64,000 nt of DNA from Nitrososphaeria archaeon. Lineage in GTDB: Archaea; Thermoproteota; Nitrososphaeria; Nitrososphaerales; JANXEG01. A program made the position numbers and the translations under genes. A model generated the notes under the pieces. That model did no database searches and was not told where the DNA came from. It was given only the letters and a program-made list of their open reading frames with translations. The stretch is taken from contig JARVKA010000002.1 of NCBI GenBank assembly GCA_029775915.1, forward strand, positions 124,001-188,000. The letters are read 5' to 3'. This document shows positions 3,031-3,383 of the stretch, one piece after another. Numbering within the stretch: the stretch's first letter is position 1; the number at the start of each line of letters is the position of its first letter.

Positions 3031-3139
3031 TGGCGCCGCCGGACGGACTTGAACCGTCGACCAACTGGTTAACAGCCAGTTGAGCTCTTATTGATCTGCT
3101 CTACCATTTCAGGGCCTAGCCTCGCTGAGCTACGGCGGC
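3031..3139 (-). tRNA. tRNA-Asn(GUU), probably with two small introns in the D-arm region
   Basis: Acceptor arms GCCGCCG and CGGCGGC pair fully. The anticodon stem-loop is ACTGG-CTGTTAA-CCAGT with anticodon GTT (Asn). The T arm is GACGG-TTCAAGT-CCGTC, the discriminator base is G, and CCA is encoded (3031-3033). The gene is 109 nt. A standard fold with D arm GCTC-AGCGAGGCTA-GAGC and one base at position 26 accounts for 78 nt. The remaining 31 nt fall in two places: about 15 nt after the D loop (near GGCCCTGAAATGGTA) and about 16 nt between the D arm and the anticodon stem (near AGATCAATAAGAGCTC). Two noncanonical introns are the simplest reading. I could not draw a clean bulge-helix-bulge, so exact junctions are unresolved. 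Confidence 0.85.
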
Positions 3140-3383
3140 TCATACTTAAATAATCAATGGTAGTTTTAAAGCTTAACTGTTTTTATAATAAGAAGTTTCT
3201 CTTATATGTTGAAGAAATTAAGGTAAAGTAATATAAATTACAAATAAAATTATTTTTATGAGATTGGTTGTAAAGCTTTTATATAAGTGGCATAACATAT
3301 TGAATTAAAGTTAGGTGTATTGATGATTTTAAATCCCTATAGTTTTATTAATATATGCTTAACTATTAGTATGGTGGCTTAAA

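Follow-up and report, generated by a model that had tools for sequence, protein, structure and literature searches.

A tRNA-Asn gene with two predicted 16-nt bulge-helix-bulge introns in a deep-branching Nitrososphaeria archaeon

The tRNA-Asn gene

A tRNA-Asn(GUU) gene with an encoded CCA occupies positions 3031-3139 of the window (the whole 64,000-nt stretch of DNA that was analysed), on the minus strand and exactly where the earlier note had placed it. The gene is 109 nt long unspliced and 77 nt long spliced. The note had put the surplus over a normal tRNA at about 31 nt, split as about 15 + 16 nt between the D loop and position 25/26. The surplus is real, as are the D-loop site and the existence of a second site, but the total is 32 nt, made up of two 16-nt introns, and the second site is 27/28. 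Read along the minus strand from 3139 to 3031, the parts are exon 1 (GCCGCCGTAGCTCAGCG, nt 1-17; 3123-3139), intron 1, lying in the D loop after nt 17 (AGGCTAGGCCCTGAAA; 3107-3122), the 11-nt exon 2 (TGGTAGAGCAG; 3096-3106), intron 2 at position 27/28 (ATCAATAAGAGCTCAA; 3080-3095) and the 49-nt exon 3 (CTGGCTGTTAACCAGTTGGTCGACGGTTCAAGTCCGTCCGGCGGCGCCA, that is CTGG CTGTTAA CCAGT ... GCCA; 3031-3079), which contributes the anticodon (GUU; 3071-3073), the T arm, the 3' acceptor strand and CCA. The TATA-like box CTTTAAAA lies 25-32 nt upstream of the gene on the same strand (3164-3171) and is also kept in the congener G001 (upstream sequences of L028 and L029); it would be the promoter.

ARAGORN calls nothing on the unspliced sequence, and the Rfam tRNA model matches that sequence at model positions 7-64 only, with a D-arm insertion, at 36.4 bits. 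When both introns are removed in silico, ARAGORN calls a regular 77-nt tRNA-Asn(gtt). The stems outside the D region fold normally, as had been claimed for them: all are intact, and the spliced form is a normal tRNA. Its identity as tRNA-Asn is established by the GUU anticodon, by the cloverleaf and by orthology. No second tRNA-Asn gene was found elsewhere in the genome, which is 99% complete; the gene should therefore be functional.

The 7-bp pairing of CAACTGG with CCAGTTG around the anticodon, to which the earlier note drew attention, exists but signals nothing out of the ordinary. Before splicing, its outer bases belong to the end of the intron, and in the spliced tRNA, as in an intronless relative (L034), the equivalent is CAGCTGG/CCAGTTG, with a G-U pair at position 27.

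Splicing signals

The splicing endonuclease cuts each 3-nt bulge of a bulge-helix-bulge (BHB) structure after the bulge's second base. Scanning the 109-nt precursor for every intron of 12-60 nt with a 4-bp helix and two 3-nt bulges yields twelve loose matches, two of which have an all-Watson-Crick 4-bp H helix together with 2 bp or more in the inner helix; these two are introns 1 and 2. The remaining BHB-like sites were rejected, since their H helices contain G-U pairs and the tRNA is destroyed when they are cut out.

The BHB of intron 1 reads TCAG-CG↓A-GGC-TAG-GCC-CTGA-AA↓T (arrows mark the cuts), with TCAG/CTGA as H, CG↓A and AA↓T as bulges, GGC/GCC as inner helix and TAG as loop. It has the 4-bp central helix and the two 3-nt bulges at the exon-intron borders, and its inner helix (h') is 3 bp long; its outer (exon-exon) helix (h) is just 1 bp, so that strictly it is of the relaxed HBh' form. 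Intron 2 reads GAGC-AG↓A-TC-AATAA-GA-GCTC-AA↓C, with GAGC/GCTC as H, AG↓A and AA↓C as bulges, TC/GA as inner helix and AATAA as loop, and it is a BHB by the strict test (h' of 2 bp; h of 2 bp, one of them G-U). The earlier note, unable to fit a standard BHB to either junction, had suspected an unusual splicing signal. A 4-bp helix with 3-nt bulges in fact fits both junctions, intron 1 being weak only in its outer helix, and the suspicion loses its support in the face of this textbook geometry. When the letters of an intron are shuffled and reinserted at the same site, a BHB whose 4-bp helix is all Watson-Crick and whose inner helix has 2 bp or more arises in 6e-4 of trials for intron 1 and in 8.5e-5 for intron 2.

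Folded without constraints, the precursor reaches its minimum energy in a structure other than the two-BHB fold (-41.4 vs -35.9 kcal/mol, the latter value with the anticodon stem counted as 4 bp only), because intron 2 offers a GAGC that can pair into a false D stem. Intron 2 (3080-3095) contains GAGCTC, which is able to pair with either D-stem strand.

Orthologues and the reading of the locus

Orthologous genes were collected from 61 related genomes by a DNA search and from 400 genomes of the order by a pattern search, and the loci were read. They fall into tRNA-Asn genes without introns (for example in G012, G035, G044 and G002), genes with intron 2 alone (G004, G030, G017 and G025) and genes with both introns (this genome, G000, and G001 of the same genus). 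The DNA pattern for the intron-2-bearing gene matches two Thaumarchaeota MAGs (L060 and L061), which are G017 and G030. The spliced product has the sequence of the intronless genes of G012 and G035 (L034, L035), except for one compensated T-stem pair. The proposal that the D-arm region holds two tiny noncanonical introns is thus borne out, with a BHB at both and an excision product that matches the intronless orthologues.

Intron 2 interrupts the identical bond in six genomes of four families (G000, G001, G004, G030, G017 and G025). Its inner helix varies among them in sequence and length and stays paired (TC/GA, TCC/GGG, TCCTA/TAGGA, CCCA/TGGG, CCT/GGG), while its loop is freely variable. Intron 1 is found only in this species and in the congener G001, and the two versions differ in the loop and the last base only. 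Other D-loop or anticodon-arm introns occur in the tRNA-Asn of G051, G043, G026, G013 and G036. In genus g12, intron 2 is present in G025 and absent from G012 and G035, so its gain or loss there is recent. Orthologues with zero, one and two introns within one order offer a clean series for dating the gain and loss of tRNA introns.

We hold it nearly certain that this tRNA-Asn(GUU) gene is intact and carries two 16-nt noncanonical BHB introns, its host being a deep-branching thaumarchaeal (Nitrososphaeria) archaeon. The gene is functional-looking and its splicing is predicted. It is very improbable that a single contiguous intron extends over both insertions, or that one intron is combined with an odd D arm. 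The insertions are just 11 nt apart, and on the half-spliced form ARAGORN proposes an unrelated tRNA-Leu reading, but intronless relatives contain exon 2 (TGGTAGAGCAG) unchanged, and the D loop is normal in those relatives whose only intron is intron 2. These one-intron and no-intron orthologues refute the contiguous intron, which the earlier note had itself named as the finding that would overturn its two-intron proposal. Failure of ARAGORN to recognise the unspliced form might suggest a decaying pseudogene, or insertion into a dispensable copy. That is scarcely credible for the sole tRNA-Asn gene found in the genome, with every stem intact, with the same structure in the congener and with introns that change between species yet keep their pairing, and it was rejected on the orthologues. 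A mature tRNA that retains the extra bases in an enlarged D arm, a cloverleaf-like shape that the unspliced form can take in minimum-energy folding, has next to no likelihood in view of the exact BHB at both junctions, the match of the spliced form to the orthologues (on which it was rejected) and the predicted introns of the same kind in many other tRNA genes of this genome. With the two-intron reading, a locus of a kind that simple tRNA finders miss is now settled.

Splicing endonuclease and a proposed splicing route

The genome encodes two EndA-type proteins, of 187 and 179 aa, both with the EndA N and C domains (PF02778 and PF01974). The 187-aa protein has the Tyr/His/Lys pattern; its best match is 2cv8 and its next the A. 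pernix chain 3p1z, and it aligns along its length with crenarchaeal catalytic subunits. Its segment ISKPKNADF stands opposite VEKPRGADF of A. pernix, with KP..ADF common to both; we take this segment to be the crenarchaea-specific loop. In alignment to solved EndA chains, the catalytic His is present in one ORF (L058) and absent from the other (L059); the 179-aa protein is the one that lacks it. Two such subunits, one apparently catalytic and one without the His, are as expected of the broad-specificity (alpha-beta)2 enzyme. Thaumarchaeota have been reported to have alpha2-beta2 splicing endonucleases (PMC4090602), and (alpha-beta)2 enzymes accept relaxed BHBs (PMC6379350), a tolerance that suits intron 1 with its 1-bp outer helix.

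The following route can be proposed. The precursor would form one BHB per intron. At intron 1, nt 12-15 of the D arm (TCAG) would pair with CTGA of the intron; at intron 2, GAGC (nt 22-25, the 3' D-stem strand) would pair with GCTC of the intron, a mimic of the 5' strand of that stem. The heteromeric (alpha-beta)2 endonuclease would then cut between bases 2 and 3 of each 3-nt bulge and the exons would be joined, presumably by an RtcB-type ligase; once intron 2 had left, the D stem (10-13/22-25) could form. We infer that both introns would be cut out and the exons ligated in the cell, and any order of their removal is likewise conjectural.

Introns in other tRNA genes of the genome

A combined BHB-plus-cloverleaf test was applied to 44 Rfam-guided places, the tRNA set resting on Rfam-guided stretches, and intron-bearing genes were counted when their spliced product scored at least 25 in our own cloverleaf score. 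The tRNA genes of the genome (loci L001-L027 and L086-L103) are heavily interrupted: at least 27 BHB introns are predicted in 18 well-resolved intron-bearing genes, a lower bound, since for some tRNAs (for example L006, L010, L017, L089, L093, L095-L099 and L102) the solver failed or gave poor cloverleaves, and the results for these are to be disregarded. The tRNA-Tyr(GUA) gene (L101, C2:312820-313240) has three predicted introns in a 156-nt precursor, and the congener G001 has many of the same predicted tRNA introns. tRNAscan-SE 2.0 gives 0.84 introns per tRNA gene in Thermoproteales and 0.21 in archaea overall (PMC8450103); this genome is clearly in the intron-rich class, its own count being a different measure from those averages. 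Intron-dense tRNA genes are thus not confined to Thermoproteales.

Two predicted introns are stacked in the D loop of tRNA-Val(GAC) (L025 1420-1580, G000:C4), and tRNA-Ala(GGC) (L022, G000:C1:32074-32182) has a 33-nt D-loop insertion that resembles two back-to-back introns. The D-loop introns at the same site in tRNA-Asn, tRNA-Val(GAC) and tRNA-Ala(GGC) are more alike than shuffles, a likeness partly forced by the common BHB geometry. It is a hint of spread between genes, weakened by the shared geometry; such spread is reported for Thermoproteales by Fujishima et al. (2010), as cited in PMC4033280. That introns are actively spreading from one tRNA gene to another in this thaumarchaeal lineage, and that the genus-limited D-loop intron of tRNA-Asn is a recent copy of its look-alikes in tRNA-Val(GAC) and tRNA-Ala(GGC), is a speculation that we think rather unlikely to hold.

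About 8 kb downstream of the tRNA-Val(GAC) gene, its 3' end recurs, along with the bases that follow it, as an exact copy of 29 bp (G000:C4:144213-144241; L148), the kind of mark expected from an integrated element. Between gene and copy lie a PIN-like ORF and other small ORFs; no integrase was recognised there by eye. Identical tRNA-bearing stretches of 99-103 bp (L012/L013 and L086/L087) are found at the ends of contigs C1, C3 and C7 and inside C5 (three of the four copies are at contig ends). They are probably assembly overlaps or repeats, so that such tRNAs may be counted twice.

Comparison with known systems

Crenarchaeota and Thaumarchaeota are known to have tRNA genes with several noncanonical introns (PMC8450103); the hint in the earlier note that such introns come mainly from Thermoproteota was near the mark. 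In the literature, no report was found of a D-loop intron together with one at 27/28 in this tRNA-Asn. Like the noncanonical and multiple BHB introns described in tRNA genes of Thermoproteales and Thaumarchaeota (Sugahara et al. 2007, 2008; PMC8450103), those described here are short, lie outside 37/38, come two or three to a gene and have a 4-bp helix with 3-nt bulges. What sets the genome apart is that, on its own measure, it looks far denser in them than archaea on average (0.21 per gene).

The predicted endonuclease resembles the A. pernix (alpha-beta)2 enzyme (PDB 3p1z) in having a catalytic alpha subunit with a similar loop segment and a second subunit; it would assemble as a heterotetramer with a broad substrate range. 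The tRNA-Thr(GGU) of Caldiarchaeum subterraneum, with introns at 24/25 and 45/46 (PMC3293823), is comparable in that it, too, has two noncanonical introns, one of them near the D stem, and a recent gain, but the tRNA and the positions are different, and intron gain there is tied to an inserted sequence, of which no sign was seen here. A gene with two mini-introns and the usual archaeal splicing signal is a well-known structure; it is as an unusually intron-rich gene, in an unusually intron-rich lineage, that this one stands out.
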